From: an uncultured Pseudomonadota bacterium
GTDB lineage: Bacteria > Pseudomonadota > Alphaproteobacteria > UBA9219
Reading direction: 5' to 3'
DNA: 33,139 nucleotides
NCBI GenBank assembly: GCA_903869345.1
Contig: CAIPYM010000018.1
Coordinates: 1-33,139 of the forward strand
Positions 3,106-19,816 of the stretch are shown piece by piece. The first letter of the stretch is position 1. Each line of letters starts with the position of its first letter. A program made the position numbers and the translations under genes. The notes under the pieces are model-generated. The model was not told where the DNA came from, did not search any database, and saw nothing but the letters and a program-made list of their open reading frames with translations.

Positions 3106-3276
3106 TCCCCAGCTCTTTGAGCGGCCCGGTTGCCTCGGAAAACAAGACCAAGCTCCACAACACGCCCCAATTAACAATTTGCAGGGCGTCCCGAATGGAT
3201 TATTTTCGACGGACCGTCGCGTCTCCGTTGGGGGCGGCACACCGGTGGCCTCTCAAGGCCCGAGGACATGGGGTTG

Positions 3277-5688
3277 ATGATGATCACCGCAACCAGCCTT
3301 TACCAAAAGCTTCACGAAGCCCGCACCGAAGAAGATGTCAAAGATATTTACATCAAGGCGTTGGGGCTGAAACAATACACCAAGGGCCTGATTGATATTC
3401 AGACCCAGGAAATATGGATTGAGGCGAAAGACAAAGGCACGACATCCACCTATGCGATGTTCACGCAGCTTTTGCACTATGTGCAAGTGGCCCTGAACAA
3501 AGGTGAACGGATCCCCCCGTTCCTCGCCGTCGTGGACACCGAAAAAGCCGCCATCATGAAGACGGCGGATGTTCTGCCGTTTCTCAAAAAGAAGACCATC
3601 AAATGGGGCAAATCGGCGAGCCAATTTTCCAAGGAAGCGTTGGAGGAGGTTTCAGCCTTTATCGGAACCTACTTTGTCTCCTTCAAAATGGCCGATCACG
3701 GGGACGAGTTTATCCAAACGGTCAAGGCGGCGATCCAATCGGGCGACATCATCCGAACGCAAATCACGCCGGACAATTTGAAGCAGGTTTTTGACAAATG
3801 GGTGGAGATGATCGGGCGGGAAATTAAGGGCGTTGATTCCGACGATTACAACCTCCTGTTCTTTGCCGACATCATGAGCGACGGCACCGTGGCCACGCAC
3901 GACAACCTGCCCGCCCAGCTTTTGCACAAAAACAACACGCCCGTTTTTGAACTGGGCGGGACCCTCTACGAATTGGGCAACAAGGAGGGCTACCGTCGCT
4001 TTTGGGCGATTTATCACCGCCCGCCCGAGGCGGAGTACCGCAATTATTTGTTGGAGCGGCGCGATAACCTCATCCCCCTGGACGAGCGGTCCTTCAAAGG
4101 CGCGTACTACACCCCCCTGCACGTGGTGGATAAAGCCTACGACAAGTTGGCGGAAACGCTGGGGAAAAACTGGCAAAAAAATTACATCGTGTGGGACATG
4201 TGCTGCGGCGTTGGGAATCTGGAAGTCAAACATTCCAACCCGCGCAACGTTTATATGAGCACGTTGGACGAAGCGGATGTTGACGTGATGCGCGCCACGA
4301 AAACCTGCGTCGCCGCAACGCGATTCCAATACGATTACTTGAATGACGACATCAACGAACTCGGCCAGATTGATTATTCGCTGACCAACAAAATGCCCAC
4401 AGGCCTTCGCAAAGCGATTGCCGAGGGGAAGAAGATTCTGGTGCTGATGAATCCGCCGTACGCGGAGGCCTCCAATTCGCAAGGCAACGAAGGGAAAAAG
4501 GATGTTGCCTCAACACGAATGGGCGCGTTGATGAACAGCGAGGATTATGGGTACGCCGCACGGGAATTGTTTGTGCAATTTATGGTGCGAATCGCCAAGG
4601 AGATTCCCACGGCAACGCTTGCCATGTTCAGCACGTTGAAATATGTGAACGCCTCCAATTTTGAAGGATTTCGCAAGGTATGGGATGCAAAATACCTTGG
4701 GGGGTTTGTGGTTCATAGCAAGGCCTTTGATGGACTGAACGGCAATTTTCCGATCGGCTTTCTGGTGTGGAAAACCGATCAAAATGGATGCAAAAGAACG
4801 CCCATTTCTGAAATTTCTGTTGAAATCATCGATAAAAAAGCAAGGGCGATTGGGGAAAAGAAATTTTATAATATTCCCAACCATCTGTTTTTAAGCGAAT
4901 GGATTAGCCGGACTCAGAAAAACAGCACACCGGCCATCCCTTTAATCAACACCATCACCCCGACAACCCAAACGAAAAACGTCCGCAATACACGTTGGGC
5001 CGATAACGCCATCGCCCATTTCTTTTGCAACGGAAATGATATGCAGCACGCCGGAACAATGACCGCGCTTTTTTCGTCCGTTCATTCCATCGGTCACGCA
5101 GGCGGATACTTTGTCACACCGAAGAATCTCGGACACGTAGCCGTTGTTTTCTCCGTTCGCCGCCTGATCAAGCCCACCTGGATCAATGACCGTGATCAGT
5201 TTTTACAACCCCGCGAGCCTCTTTCGGCGGGGTTCAAAAACGATTGCCTGATCTGGATGTTGTTCAATGGCAGCAACCTGACGGCCAGTGCCGATGGGCT
5301 GAAATGGAACGGGAAAACGTGGTCCATCGTCAATCACTTTATTCCCTTCACCGAATCCGAAGTCGGTGCGCCCGACCGCTTTGAATCCGACTTTATGGTC
5401 ACGTACCTGGCCGACAAAAAACTCTCGCTCGAGGCCCAGGCGGTCTTGGACGCCGGACGCGTTCTCTGGCAGGCCTATTTTTCCGAAACCGATGTTCACA
5501 CCGTGCGCGATGAGCTCAAGCTGAACCGTCCCGATGTGGGGTGGTACCAAATCCGCAACGCCCTCAAAAAACGTCAGGCCAGCGGTGATTACAAAGACGT
5601 TGATTTTTCCCCTTTTGAAGACGCTTATAAAACGCTCACCGAAAAACTCGCGCCCCTGGTGTATGAACTGGGTTTCCTCAAGGATTAA
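3277..5688 (+). CDS. Putative Type IIG restriction enzyme / N6-adenine DNA methyltransferase
   Basis: The protein of about 803 residues has the marks of a combined restriction-modification enzyme. The SAM-binding motif I appears as WDMCCGVGN (residues about 305-313) and the adenine-methyltransferase catalytic motif as NPPY (392-395), followed by a typical FPIGFLVW segment (about 490). The N-terminal 150 residues could be a PD-(D/E)xK nuclease: D40 of LIDIQ followed by E49-A-K51 in IWIEAK. The C-terminal third would then hold the target-recognition domain. Start: ATG 3268 leaves no room after the GAGGA at 3262-3266, so ATG 3277 (or 3280) fits better. The gene is visibly AT-richer than its neighbours, especially around 4640-5160, and has no separate methyltransferase or specificity gene nearby, suggesting horizontal transfer. 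Its 3' end overlaps lpxB by 11 bp. A solitary methyltransferase is the alternative; the target sequence cannot be read from sequence. Confidence 0.8.
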   Translation: MMITATSLYQKLHEARTEEDVKDIYIKALGLKQYTKGLIDIQTQEIWIEAKDKGTTSTYAMFTQLLHYVQVALNKGERIPPFLAVVDTEKAAIMKTADVLPFLKKKTIKWGKSASQFSKEALEEVSAFIGTYFVSFKMADHGDEFIQTVKAAIQSGDIIRTQITPDNLKQVFDKWVEMIGREIKGVDSDDYNLLFFADIMSDGTVATHDNLPAQLLHKNNTPVFELGGTLYELGNKEGYRRFWAIYHRPPEAEYRNYLLERRDNLIPLDERSFKGAYYTPLHVVDKAYDKLAETLGKNWQKNYIVWDMCCGVGNLEVKHSNPRNVYMSTLDEADVDVMRATKTCVAATRFQYDYLNDDINELGQIDYSLTNKMPTGLRKAIAEGKKILVLMNPPYAEASNSQGNEGKKDVASTRMGALMNSEDYGYAARELFVQFMVRIAKEIPTATLAMFSTLKYVNASNFEGFRKVWDAKYLGGFVVHSKAFDGLNGNFPIGFLVWKTDQNGCKRTPISEISVEIIDKKARAIGEKKFYNIPNHLFLSEWISRTQKNSTPAIPLINTITPTTQTKNVRNTRWADNAIAHFFCNGNDMQHAGTMTALFSSVHSIGHAGGYFVTPKNLGHVAVVFSVRRLIKPTWINDRDQFLQPREPLSAGFKNDCLIWMLFNGSNLTASADGLKWNGKTWSIVNHFIPFTESEVGAPDRFESDFMVTYLADKKLSLEAQAVLDAGRVLWQAYFSETDVHTVRDELKLNRPDVGWYQIRNALKKRQASGDYKDVDFSPFEDAYKTLTEKLAPLVYELGFLKD

Positions 5689-6907: not shown

Positions 6908-6965
6908 AGGGCGTAGACGGCTCGCGCACTCTACCAGACAACGAGAAAGGAGGAAGAGCTCCCCT

Positions 6966-7068
6966 CCGTCGTCCTCACGAACAACGTGAAGCGATCCAGG
7001 GGACCGGGCTGAAGACGGGGCAAACGGCCCTGGATTGCTTCGTCCCCTTCGGGGACTCGCAATGACGG
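6966..7068. repeat. Palindromic intergenic repeat, copy 1
   Basis: GAAGCGATCCAGGG (6988-7001) and CCCTGGATTGCTTC (7028-7041) form a 14-bp inverted repeat with one G-T mismatch. The right arm continues through a GTCCCC-TTC-GGGGAC hairpin (7042-7056) to TCGCAATGACGG. The left arm carries a degenerate counterpart, CTCCGTCGTCCTCACGAA. Read on the minus strand the right arm is CGTCATTGCGAG...GAAGCAATCCAGGG, a dispersed palindrome type familiar from many bacterial genomes. It fills the gap between lpxB and the next gene. A related copy lies at 19469-19620. Confidence 0.7.
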
Positions 7069-7105
7069 AAGAGTCAGCCGTTTTCTACTGTCGGACTCGT
7101 CGCCC

Positions 7106-8231: not shown

Positions 8232-8735
8232 CTACCGTCCCCCGCGTTCAACCATCAGCGTCAGGTCTTCGCGGAGGCTCTGAAGGTCCTCTTCGTGTTC
8301 GACCTCTTGGGCGAGAATTCCCAGCGCCAAGTTGTAGGTCACGGGATCGGCCTCTTTTGTCGCGTCCATCAAGCCTTTGTAAAAGGAAATGGCGCAGCGC
8401 TCGCCCTTGATATTCTGGTCGAGCAGAGCAACCACGTAGGGATCGTTAGGCGCATCGTAGGCACAGGGGCTTTCTTTCGCCCACTCCTCGGGAGTCAGGA
8501 CGGGCGTTCCTCCCAACTGGATGATGCGCCCCGCGAGCAGATTCGCGTGCGCGAGTTCTTCCGTCGCGTGCAGGGCCAGCTCGGCGGCTACCGCATTCTT
8601 CATCGGCCCTTTGATGAGCTTGGCACCCAGCCAGTACTGGTAATATGCCAGCCACTCGCTCGCGTAAGCCTTGTTGAGTAGGTCAAGGATATGCTCCACA
8701 CCCTGACCCACCATTTCCCGTCCGCGCAATCCCAT
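8232..8735 (-). CDS. Dps-like (DPSL/thioferritin-type) ferritin-like protein
   Basis: A 167-residue four-helix ferritin-superfamily protein. Likely ferroxidase ligands are E27 (in SEWLAYYQYW), E60 and H63 (in EELAH), E112 (in GERCA), and E144 and H147 (in EVEH). Two cysteines, C91 in PCAYDAP and C114 in GERCA, match the cysteine pair that marks the Dps-like (DPSL or thioferritin) branch, known from archaea and some bacteria. Members of that branch oxidise Fe(II) with peroxide, store iron as a hollow 12-mer, and protect DNA from oxidative damage. The ATG at 8735 is well supported by GGGAGG a few bases upstream (plus-strand CCTCCC near 8742-8747). It diverges from the pheA remnant across a gap of about 200 bp that presumably holds both promoters. 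A bacterioferritin is less likely because no heme-ligating methionine is apparent and the protein has the DPSL pattern. Confidence 0.88.
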   Translation of the reverse strand: MGLRGREMVGQGVEHILDLLNKAYASEWLAYYQYWLGAKLIKGPMKNAVAAELALHATEELAHANLLAGRIIQLGGTPVLTPEEWAKESPCAYDAPNDPYVVALLDQNIKGERCAISFYKGLMDATKEADPVTYNLALGILAQEVEHEEDLQSLREDLTLMVERGGR

Positions 8736-8941
8736 GATCAGCCTCCCTCAACAATCCGAGACCGCGCGACTCCGGCGCGATTCCTCTCGCCCCGGAAGTT
8801 TAGCCCTTCCGCCCGAGAAGGCCAAACGCATGGACGCGCGTTCCCTTCAAAAGGCCCCACCACGCTGCTTTCGCGCCTCAGCGTTCCGGGTGTCAGAGTG
8901 CCTCAACTTTGCACACGTCTACGGGAAAACAGGGGGACGAC

Positions 8942-9451
8942 ATGACCGCCACCATCGCGTTTCAGGGTGTTCCGGGGGCCTATTCGGACCTCGCGTGCCG
9001 GGCCGCCGCGCCGTCTTATGAACCCCTTCCCTGCGCGACGTTTGAAGACGCTTTCGCCGCCGTGCAAGAAGGGCTGGCCGAACGCGCCCTGTTGCCCGTC
9101 GAAAACTCCACCGCCGGGCGCGTGGCGGGGGTTCACTACGTTCTGCCGGAGGCGGGGTTATCCATCGTCGGGGAGCATTATCAACCGGTGGTCCATCACT
9201 TGCTGGCCGTCCCAGGGGCGCGTCTGGAGACGATCACCCAGGCCATGAGCCTTGATCAGGGGTTGGCGCAATATCGCCTTTGGCTTCGTGAGCACAACAT
9301 TCAGTCCGTTGCTTATCTGCAAATTTCTTGGCGTATTTGGCACGGACTTTTGCGTCATCCATCGGAGTGCCCGTTAGATCATTCCAACGGGCATCGTCAC
9401 ACCAACGCATCCTTATCTCCTTCGTCAGCAGACTCTCTTCCGGCGCTTTAA
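8942..9451 (+). pseudogene. pheA: Prephenate dehydratase, truncated after the first half
   Basis: Prephenate dehydratase makes phenylpyruvate in phenylalanine synthesis. From ATG 8942, preceded by GGGGGA, about 125 codons match the family: IAFQGVPGAYSDLACR, ATFEDAFAAVQEG, LLPVENSTAGRVAGVHYVLPE, IVGEHYQPVVHHLL, and LREHNIQSVAY. The similarity ends near base 9316, where family members continue into ADTAGA. The rest of the frame, to TGA/TAA 9449-9451, is only the antisense of a GIY-YIG nuclease gene. The catalytic TRF motif and the C-terminal ACT regulatory domain are missing and do not reappear downstream before ftsK. The product is therefore almost certainly inactive. The intact start signals suggest a fairly recent event. 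Another chorismate mutase/prephenate dehydratase elsewhere in the genome could compensate. Confidence 0.88.
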
Positions 9452-9797
9452 TGGCCTTTCCGTTCGGATTGGGGGTGTCGGTGACGTTGCGTAGAGGCAC
9501 GTCCAGGGAATCCAACGCTGCGATGATTCTTCGCTCCTCTGCTGTCACTTCTTCGGCTTTCCTTTTTTTGAAGGCAAGGGCATCGATTTTGCATTTCTCC
9601 TTCGCGTGAGAAAGAAATCTGTCCACGACATTTGTGGCCTTGCCGACGTAATAACTGCCATCCTTGAAGGAAAGGACATAAATGCCTGTTCGCTCGCCTT
9701 CAGTGAACAGATCGACAACCGACCTCATGCCAGCGACCTTACGGAACTTGCTGAACCCTACAAAAATAAGCCGCTTTTCAAGCTCTTCCCGTTCCAT
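9234..9797 (-). CDS. GIY-YIG nuclease domain protein with a chimeric C-terminus
   Basis: A 187-residue protein with the GIY-YIG signature at residues about 37-60: TGIYVLSF, then SYYVGKATNV, followed by the conserved arginine in DRFLSHAKE. These enzymes cut DNA with a single metal ion; small free-standing ones occur in mobile elements and repair contexts, and its role here is unknown. ATG 9797 is chosen because GGGAG lies 8 bases upstream; the frame extends to 9863 without support. From about codon 162 (after KKFADKQ) the protein reads the antisense strand of the pheA remnant, so the last 25 residues are acquired, not ancestral. The gene is AT-richer than ftsK and secA. It probably arrived with, or was joined by, the event that cut pheA. 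Confidence 0.85.
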   Translation of the reverse strand: MEREELEKRLIFVGFSKFRKVAGMRSVVDLFTEGERTGIYVLSFKDGSYYVGKATNVVDRFLSHAKEKCKIDALAFKKRKAEEVTAEERRIIAALDSLDVPLRNVTDTPNPNGKAIKAPEESLLTKEIRMRWCDDARWNDLTGTPMDDAKVRAKYAKKFADKQRTECCAHEAKGDIAPTPDQGSWPG

Positions 9798-9957
9798 GCT
9801 GATAACTCCCATGAAGGGGGCCAGGAAAAAGATTGTGCCGATTGATCTCCGCGCAACATGCATTTTTTACCATGAGGATCGGCCAGAGGGTAGGAGCAAA
9901 GTCTTGGCGGAAGGGTGCCCCTGTTGCCCGTCCGCCGTTCCCGGTAATCTGCCCGCC

Positions 9958-12420
9958 ATGTCACATCCCCTCACACGTCCGAATCGCGCGGGACGCTCCA
10001 CCTCTCAAGCCGAGCGACGCTGGGTCCCCGAGCCCGTGCACGCGTTCCTGGGGCGCGTTTGCGCAGGGGGCGCGGGGGCGGGTCTCGCGCTGGTGGGCAT
10101 CGCGTTCGCGCTGGCCACGCTCAGTTACGATTCCCGCGATCCCTCCTGGAACACCGCCGCACCGGTGGGCAGGGCCGTGCACAACATGTTGGGCGGTCCC
10201 GGCGCGAGCGTGGCCGATTTAGCCCGGCAGTGCTTTGGCCTTTCGTCCCTAAGCCTGACTCTGATTTTGGTCGCCTGGGGCTGGCGCATCGCCGCGCGTC
10301 AGGGCCTGGGGCTCATCACCTTGCGCCTTGTGGCCGCCGTGCTGGCCTTCGTGGTCCTGGGCACGGCCGGGGCCCTTTGGACCGCCGAGCCTTCGTCCAT
10401 GGACCTTTGGGGCGGGGCCATCGGGCACGTTCTGGGCCGGGGCCTACGGACGAGTTTGCCCCCGTGGAGCACGCCGTTGGTCACTCTGCTTTTGGGCACG
10501 TTAGGCCTGGGAGCCCTTGTCGCCGCCTGCGCCCTGGATCGCCGGGCGATTCTTGTCCTTCTGCGCACGGCCCACGCTGCCGGGAGGTGGTTGGGCCGTC
10601 AGACGGTTGCAGGTGTACGGAGGCTCCTGCAGCGTCTTCGTGCCCCGCGCACTTGGGAAGAGGGGGATGACGCGGAGGAAACAGGCGACGGTACGGGGCT
10701 CAAACGCAGATCGGTGGAGGGGCACGACACGGAACGGACGGACGACCCCGAGACCGAATCCCACGCCTTTGTGCGCGGGGATCTTCCCACGTCCCACGAC
10801 CCCGCGACCCGCGAAACCAAGATTCTTCGGCTCGGTCATGTGGAAAAACGCACGCCCAAGACTCCCTCCCGCGTGGCTCCCCCTCCCCCACGGCGCGTTG
10901 TCACGGCAACCGATGGAGCGTACGCCGTCCCGCCGTTGGATCTTTTGGGATGGCCCGAGAGCGCGAAAACCGTGGCCCCCGGTCTCTCGCCCGAGGCGTT
11001 GGACAAGAACGCCAAAATGCTGGAAGGCGTTTTAGCCGATTTCGGCGTTCACGGGCACATCACGCGCGTGAGTCCTGGCCCTGTCGTCACGCTTTATGAA
11101 CTGGAGCCCTCCCCCGGCACACGCGCCTCGCGCGTCATTTCCCTGGCCGACGACATCGCCCGCAACATGAGCGCAACCTCCGTGCGCGTGGCGGTCGTGC
11201 CGGGTCGCAACGTCATCGGCATCGAACTGCCCAACCGCCGCCGCGAGACGGTTTACTTGCGCGAGATTCTGGCCAGCCGCGCTTACAACGAGCATCCGGG
11301 CACCCTGCCGCTCGTCTTGGGTAAAGACATCTCGGGGGCGCCCATCATCGTTGACCTCGCGCGCATGCCGCACCTTTTGATTGCGGGCACGACGGGTTCG
11401 GGCAAATCGGTGGGACTCAACACGATGATCCTGTCCCTGATTTACCTGCTGCCGCCTCAACGCTGCCGGTTCATCATGATCGATCCGAAGATGCTGGAAC
11501 TGTCCATGTACGAGGGCATTCCGCACCTTCTCGCCCCGGCCGTCACCGAGCCGCGCAAGGCCATTCGCGCACTCAAGTGGACCGTGCGCGAAATGGAGGA
11601 CCGCTACCGCAAAATGTCCAAGCTCGGCGTTCGGAACATTGAAGGCTACAACGCCCGCCTACGTGAGGCCTCCCGCAAAGGCGAACGGTTGACACGCCTT
11701 GTGCAGCCGGGATTTGACCCCGAAACCGGTAAACCGCTTTACGAAGAGCAGGCCCTGGACCTTGCGCCGCTTGCGTACATCGTCGTCATCGTGGACGAGA
11801 TGGCCGACCTGATGCTGGTCGCGGGCAAGGACATCGAGGGCGCGGTTCAACGGCTCGCGCAAATGGCGCGGGCGGCGGGGATTCATCTCATCATGGCGAC
11901 ACAACGCCCTTCGGTGGACGTCATCACGGGCACGATCAAGGCGAACTTCCCAACGCGCGTCAGCTTCCAGGTCACGTCCAAAATTGACAGCCGCACCATC
12001 CTGGGCGAACAGGGGGCCGAGCAGCTTTTGGGCCAGGGCGACATGCTCTACATGGCGGGGGGCGGGCGCGTCACGCGCGTGCATGGCCCCTTTGTGCGGG
12101 ACGAGGACGTGGAATCGGTCGTCGCGTTCCTGAAAAGCCAGGGGGGGCCCGATGATCTCATGGACATCACCGCCGATGACTCGGACGATGAGGGCTCGGA
12201 CAAGGGCGAGAGCGGCGACGACTCCGGCGGCAACGAACTTTACGACAAGGCCGTTGACCTTGTGTTGCGCGAACGCAAGGCGTCCATCAGTTTCGTGCAA
12301 CGGCACCTGCAAATTGGCTACAACCGCGCAGCGACTCTGATTGAACGCATGGAGCGCGAGGGCGTTGTCGGCGAAGCCAACCACGTGGGCAAACGTGAAG
12401 TCCTGGGCCGTAAACCGTAG
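9958..12420 (+). CDS. ftsK: DNA translocase FtsK
   Basis: FtsK anchors at the division septum and pumps chromosomal DNA to help resolve dimers at dif. The 820-residue protein has an N-terminal region of about four membrane segments (roughly residues 30-190), a charged and proline-rich linker (to about 330), and the RecA-like motor with Walker A GTTGSGKS (477-484), IVVIVDEMADLM as Walker B, and MATQRPSVDVITGTIKANFPTR. The C-terminal gamma winged helix, which reads the KOPS orientation sequence, is seen as SISFVQRHLQIGYNRAATLIERMEREGVVG. ATG 9958 gives MSHPLTRPNRAG; the frame is open back to 9682 but that stretch is not FtsK-like and overlaps the GIY-YIG gene. No strong Shine-Dalgarno is present. 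The gene is free-standing; alphaproteobacteria often have it near lolA, which is absent here. Confidence 0.96.
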   Translation: MSHPLTRPNRAGRSTSQAERRWVPEPVHAFLGRVCAGGAGAGLALVGIAFALATLSYDSRDPSWNTAAPVGRAVHNMLGGPGASVADLARQCFGLSSLSLTLILVAWGWRIAARQGLGLITLRLVAAVLAFVVLGTAGALWTAEPSSMDLWGGAIGHVLGRGLRTSLPPWSTPLVTLLLGTLGLGALVAACALDRRAILVLLRTAHAAGRWLGRQTVAGVRRLLQRLRAPRTWEEGDDAEETGDGTGLKRRSVEGHDTERTDDPETESHAFVRGDLPTSHDPATRETKILRLGHVEKRTPKTPSRVAPPPPRRVVTATDGAYAVPPLDLLGWPESAKTVAPGLSPEALDKNAKMLEGVLADFGVHGHITRVSPGPVVTLYELEPSPGTRASRVISLADDIARNMSATSVRVAVVPGRNVIGIELPNRRRETVYLREILASRAYNEHPGTLPLVLGKDISGAPIIVDLARMPHLLIAGTTGSGKSVGLNTMILSLIYLLPPQRCRFIMIDPKMLELSMYEGIPHLLAPAVTEPRKAIRALKWTVREMEDRYRKMSKLGVRNIEGYNARLREASRKGERLTRLVQPGFDPETGKPLYEEQALDLAPLAYIVVIVDEMADLMLVAGKDIEGAVQRLAQMARAAGIHLIMATQRPSVDVITGTIKANFPTRVSFQVTSKIDSRTILGEQGAEQLLGQGDMLYMAGGGRVTRVHGPFVRDEDVESVVAFLKSQGGPDDLMDITADDSDDEGSDKGESGDDSGGNELYDKAVDLVLRERKASISFVQRHLQIGYNRAATLIERMEREGVVGEANHVGKREVLGRKP

Positions 12421-19412: not shown

Positions 19413-19816
19413 GCCCTCCCCGAAATCGCACGCGTTTGATGATGAAGTGACAGGCTGACTGTTTGTCGCTTTTTTCTCAGCCTCTCCCCGTCAATCGCAA
19501 GGCCCCTGAAAGGGACCGGGACGATCCATCTCCTGCCCTGTCCGTTCGACCGAAAGGGTGTGAGCTGGATCACTTCGTTGCGCTCGCGATTGACAGAGGG
19601 GGGCCGTGGCTGAGAAAAAGGCCCTTGTGTGCCGTGTCGCAGCCTCAACACCCCAGGGAGTCGTGGGTTCACGTTTCAACCGAATCGCGGGCTTTTTTGT
19701 GCCCCGAACGCCGCTTCCGCCCACCCCTGCCTCAAGCGGGCTATAGGCGAAGGATGGAATCCAGGAGCCCTATCTGATCACATCCCTTGTTTTACAAAGG
19801 AACCAGGAAGCCTTGG
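19413..19816. other. 404-bp intergenic region without a supported gene
   Basis: It lies between elaA and the AT-rich orphan gene, which both end toward it. It holds the second palindromic repeat copy at 19469-19620. After that come a T-run at about 19692-19697 following AATCGCGGGC, possibly part of a terminator, and no convincing coding frame; the frames present are short and share no familiar motif. Confidence 0.6.
19469..19620. repeat. Palindromic intergenic repeat, copy 2, with longer terminal inverted repeats
   Basis: TTTTTCTCAGCC (19471-19482) is inverted as GGCTGAGAAAAA (19608-19619). Inside it GTCAATCGC (19490-19498) pairs with GCGATTGAC (19586-19594), and GATCCA (19523-19528) with TGGATC (19566-19571). 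On the minus strand the right part reads TGTCAATCGCGAG...GAAGTGATCCAG, resembling the CGTCATTGCGAG...GAAGCAATCCAG of the copy at 6966-7068. The spacing suggests a non-coding MITE-like or structured repeat. Confidence 0.6.

Follow-up and report, generated by a model that had tools for sequence, protein, structure and literature searches.

The window analysed here, a stretch of 33,139 nucleotides, is contig C18 from a draft genome of 1.74 Mb in 76 contigs (completeness 99.3%, contamination 0.13%). The closest relatives in public collections bear names such as Micavibrio and Rhodospirillales bacterium, which places the organism among the alphaproteobacteria, in a Micavibrio-like order. The window carries the 5' part of a second pheA gene, which ends at about position 9316, where its tail meets that of a GIY-YIG nuclease gene of foreign appearance. 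The reading that we favour, and consider reasonably probable, is that a redundant copy of pheA was recently broken through one deletion, as an instance of ordinary gene decay. A complete pheA lies on another contig (C6) of the same genome.

The cut pheA gene and its assembly context

The pheA match begins with the ATG at 8942 and ends at 9315. Against the frame 8942-9451, the Pfam prephenate dehydratase domain (PF00800) aligned over profile positions 1-123 of 181 only (E = 7e-30), and DNA comparison with the intact C6 copy gave 82% identity over window positions 8937-9315 (90% for the protein), falling to the background level from 9316. An earlier note on this DNA had placed the end of the match at about 9316, where both the domain profile and the DNA identity indeed stop. 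The frame itself continues for 44 more codons, to a stop at 9449-9451, through DNA that translation confirms to be antisense to the nuclease gene, again as the note had described. The features of the locus are as follows.

8232-8735, minus strand: ferritin-like gene, intact left-hand neighbour (PF00210, E = 2e-26)
8942-9315, plus strand: about 124 of 283 codons from the 5' end of a second pheA, encoding prephenate dehydratase (PF00800 positions 1-123 of 181; 82% DNA and 90% amino acid identity to the C6 copy)
9316-9317, no strand: breakpoint, pheA tail to tail with the nuclease gene (identity to intact pheA stops at 9315)
9316-9451, plus strand: read-through tail of the pheA frame, 44 codons and stop, antisense nuclease DNA (translation, read-through count)
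9234-9316, minus strand: read-through tail of the nuclease frame, 27 codons and stop, antisense pheA (translation)
9317-9797, minus strand: native part of the GIY-YIG nuclease gene, about 160 codons, probably without its 3' part (PF01541, E = 4e-5; longer relatives; G+C 0.506)
9958-12420, plus strand: ftsK, intact right-hand neighbour (Pfam FtsK domains; start placed by homology, not at the first ATG of the open reading frame, 9682)

The ftsK relatives align from residues 2-17 of the start placed at 9958. On the other side, proteins with 78-84% identity to the ferritin-like protein occur in three genomes from other genera, yet its gene is present in just 5 of the 33 genomes of the order; so patchy an occurrence suggests gene transfer.

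Compared with monofunctional PheA proteins (PRK11899/NF008866; solved structures 6vh5 and 7alz), the first 124 residues of the fragment align without gaps; the known enzymes also possess the rest of the catalytic domain, the TRF motif and a regulatory C-terminus, all of which the window copy lacks. The fragment scored 164 bits against an NCBIfam equivalog cut-off of 359, and it has no complete PDT domain with a TRF motif. As judged from this truncated sequence, the remnant cannot act as an enzyme. The note had stated that the lost half is not downstream, and tblastn and blastn gave no match to it above chance anywhere in the window. It had also proposed looking for that half elsewhere in the genome: searches of the genome and the window found it absent from the rest of the assembly, the C6 gene apart.

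The whole-genome checks behind these statements consisted of searches of the genome plus about a fifth of its sequence. Exact overlaps of 55 bases between contig ends suggest that the assembly graph was built with k = 55. At the junction no repeat approaches this length, the longest shared word being 18 bases with about a fifth of the genome compared, and positions 9317-9957 have no strong second match in the whole genome. A draft in 76 contigs could in principle hold a chimera at 9316, or contigs C18 and C6 could derive from two related organisms. Either artefact is very unlikely, given the junction data, the 0.13% contamination, a composition that fits the genome on both contigs and the fact that, in the first 20 kb of the window, the pheA fragment is the sole coding stretch with a second copy, the contig end apart. 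The composition and duplication checks likewise give no support to a contaminant origin of the second pheA. The breakpoint at about 9316 is genuine in the assembly.

Elsewhere on the contig, positions 1-227 hold the 5' piece of a gene resembling gamma-class carbonic anhydrases. Contig C14 carries an intact copy with 98% identity to it; the window piece breaks off at about 227, nine bases short of the 3' end of secA, and is a second, younger duplicated gene piece on C18. The first 55 bases are shared by contigs C8 and C59. At 19468-19645 and 6947-7073 lie dispersed repeats, about 110-180 bases long and bounded by inverted repeats, with dozens more copies at 70-93% identity across many contigs of the genome; they look like a palindromic intergenic element. 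Between secA and lpxB, a plus-strand gene at 3268-5688 encodes a protein of 806 aa that weakly matches type II DNA methyltransferases; the gene sits in a low-G+C island (about 0.45-0.56) and looks acquired.

The intact pheA and the history of the two copies

The earlier note had raised a possible loss of phenylalanine synthesis and had suggested a search of the genome for another prephenate dehydratase. Profile and protein searches found a complete gene of 283 codons at C6:32205-33053, which removes the ground for that suspicion. Its product scored 398 bits, above the equivalog cut-off of 359, matched PDT positions 1-180 of 181 with the TRF motif present, and aligned end to end with the solved prephenate dehydratase 6vh5; it has the full PDT domain and a C-terminal ACT-like region, the latter a weak match below the Pfam cut-off. 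Phenylalanine synthesis is probably intact, because this complete pheA is available on C6. That the break abolished the pathway is scarcely conceivable: loss does occur in the group, as 2 of 21 good genomes of the order lack any prephenate dehydratase match, but here a complete gene of 283 codons, with TRF motif and ACT-like region, aligns with solved enzymes over its entire length. In the order-level search, two near-complete genomes of the same family (G002, 99%, and G010, 98%) showed no prephenate dehydratase match at all, and real loss of this step seems to happen in these bacteria.

Comparison of the two copies over the first 375 bases shows 70 differences, distributed as 9, 7 and 54 over codon positions 1, 2 and 3, with dN of 0.07-0.09 and dS of 0.6-0.95 between the fragment and the C6 gene. 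Since 54 of the 70 differences are in third positions and dN is far below dS, the divergence accumulated mostly under constraint, most of it while both copies worked. The fragment would then once have been part of a constrained, full-length second pheA that was broken recently. Had the fragment evolved along its entire branch free of constraint, a rough clock would predict dozens of amino acid changes, whereas about three are seen; assuming such a clock, the break probably came late, when all but a small fraction of the time since the separation of the copies had passed.

In a tree of 37 sequences the two copies are sisters, with a branch of 0.025 leading to the fragment and of 0.098 to the intact copy, and the next nearest pheA has about 65% protein identity. 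At the 13 differing sites, the fragment has the state commoner in relatives at 9 and the intact copy at 2 (residues 111 and 122), with 2 ties. The alignment and tree offer evidence that the broken copy had probably been the more conserved of the two. Gene order does not indicate which locus is ancestral, as the neighbours of pheA vary among relatives and neither the C18 nor the C6 locus matches them.

A different history would have an already cut pheA fragment of a sister species arriving by transfer, perhaps together with the nuclease gene, and never complete in this lineage. A recent arrival from a diverged donor would likewise show constrained differences, and the adjoining ferritin gene is patchy in the order; on the other hand, no donor is known, the closest pheA outside the pair being as distant as stated above, and the GC3 of the fragment (0.72) is native, nearer the genome median (0.70) than that of the intact copy (0.63). 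We consider such a transfer quite unlikely.

The nuclease gene and the origin of the junction

The nuclease reading frame, on the minus strand, starts with the ATG at 9795-9797, runs through about 160 native codons to about 9317 and then through 27 codons antisense to pheA, ending in a stop at 9234-9236. The GIY-YIG domain (PF01541) was matched at E = 4e-5, barely over the curated cut-off and over 39 of 78 positions. Residues Y40, Y50, R60, E88 and N104, judged by eye, fit the GIY-YIG motif and are common to one of the two nearest relatives, a plasmid protein of Rhodococcus opacus (WP_120661494.1, 342 aa, 36% identity over 76 aa); the match appears weak but real. A second relative, a Deinococcus plasmid protein, is 33% identical over 73 aa. 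No homologue was found outside its own genome among 385 genomes of the class, nor in a collection of genome contigs, and a profile built from the nuclease and its Rhodococcus relative returned motif-level matches only over 398 genomes of the phylum. An assignment as a phage or mobile gene was rejected: there was no match in phages, viral contigs or PHROGs, and PADLOC gave only weak hits, to the GIY-YIG motif. A single-sequence structure model, with a mean pLDDT of 40, was too low for use.

The earlier note had proposed a comparison of GIY-YIG C-termini. Both detectable relatives run about 145-190 residues beyond the position matching the breakpoint; this expected length rests on two distant proteins, the Deinococcus one being poorly preserved at its start. 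In the Rhodococcus protein and the window nuclease the GIY-YIG motif is equally far from the start (residue 35 vs. 38), but the former runs on for about 190 residues more, the window copy natively ending at about residue 160. Because both relatives continue well past the corresponding point, the nuclease gene was probably also cut and its 3' part is probably missing.

A single deletion would be the simplest cause of both truncations, since two tail-to-tail genes both lack the ends that face the junction; this is clear for pheA and, on the nuclease side, judged from two distant relatives. In the proposed course of events, the lineage would have held two full-length, diverged pheA genes, of which the copy now on C18 stood tail to tail with the foreign-looking nuclease gene. 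One illegitimate deletion would have taken the last approximately 56% (about 159 codons) of this pheA together with any intervening DNA and, probably, the 3' part of the nuclease gene. With what was left of the two genes joined at about 9316, each frame would have continued in the antisense strand of the other until it met a stop. None of the 33 genomes of the order, all of them from other genera, showed the locus in its undeleted, ancestral form. Inversion or translocation was rejected, as the 3' half of pheA was not found elsewhere in the genome, the C6 gene apart. A search for repeats, promoter or terminator signals at the junction gave nothing convincing.

The earlier note had suggested a deletion plus an insertion. 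The deletion would suffice; the insertion, though possible, is not needed, as the nuclease relatives extend past the break. This alternative has a foreign segment with the nuclease gene integrating with one end within the second pheA and the other immediately ahead of ftsK, and replacing the 3' half of pheA. The nuclease gene does look foreign, with a G+C content of 0.506 against 0.62-0.70 on both sides and a GC3 of 0.575 against the genome median of 0.70. It lies in a low-G+C block (9268-9906) that dips to 0.50 between flanks of 0.62 and 0.70. An insertion would also fit the want of any relative of the nuclease in the class and the loss of a conserved gene of about 315 aa, which we take by eye to be metallophosphatase-like; it lies upstream of ftsK in 5 of the 10 relatives examined and is missing in the window. 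However, neither an integrase or transposase nor a target duplication or terminal repeat was seen, and the nuclease seems itself to be cut there, so that the insert would have to end inside the nuclease gene. We regard an insertion with replacement as fairly unlikely, and favour the single deletion.

The hybrid reading frames

When two convergent genes lose their stop codons to a common breakpoint, each must be read on into the antisense strand of the other. Counted from randomly chosen points of the genome, read-through has a median of 39 codons; it extends for at least 26 codons in 62% of cases and for at least 45 in 46%. The tails of 27 and 44 codons need no explanation, because their lengths match chance in a G+C-rich genome; the two hybrid frames are chance read-through of ordinary length. 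The earlier note had read one breakpoint as the source of two chimeric proteins: two hybrid frames do exist, but lengths at chance level do not mark them as special proteins, and the antisense tail of the nuclease, which it had put at 25 codons, counts 27 on translation. We infer that neither hybrid protein is functional. It is highly improbable that the nuclease is expressed and that selection maintains it with the 27-residue tail from antisense pheA, as a new protein end drawn from the antisense strand of a metabolic gene.

Two known situations resemble the junction. Deletions that join parts of two genes create new open reading frames, generally without immediate function (PMC12803068). The window likewise has two gene parts, probably linked by a deletion, with new frames arising; in the described cases the start of one frame is joined to the end of another, whereas here the parts meet tail to tail and in antisense. 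Convergent overlaps, for their part, are common in prokaryotes (PMC2174442), and the window shares with them two genes on opposite strands whose 3' ends overlap, by 218 bases; those overlaps are small extensions of two working genes, whereas this one follows the truncation of at least one gene. The junction departs from known deletion-born frames only by its antisense layout and is an ordinary recent pseudogene junction.

For the organism, the cut pheA in the window does not imply phenylalanine auxotrophy, given the intact copy elsewhere. The locus is a clear-cut case of a duplicated housekeeping gene in which the breakage of one copy is still recent, and its tail-to-tail, antisense layout may make it a small test case for deletion-born reading frames.
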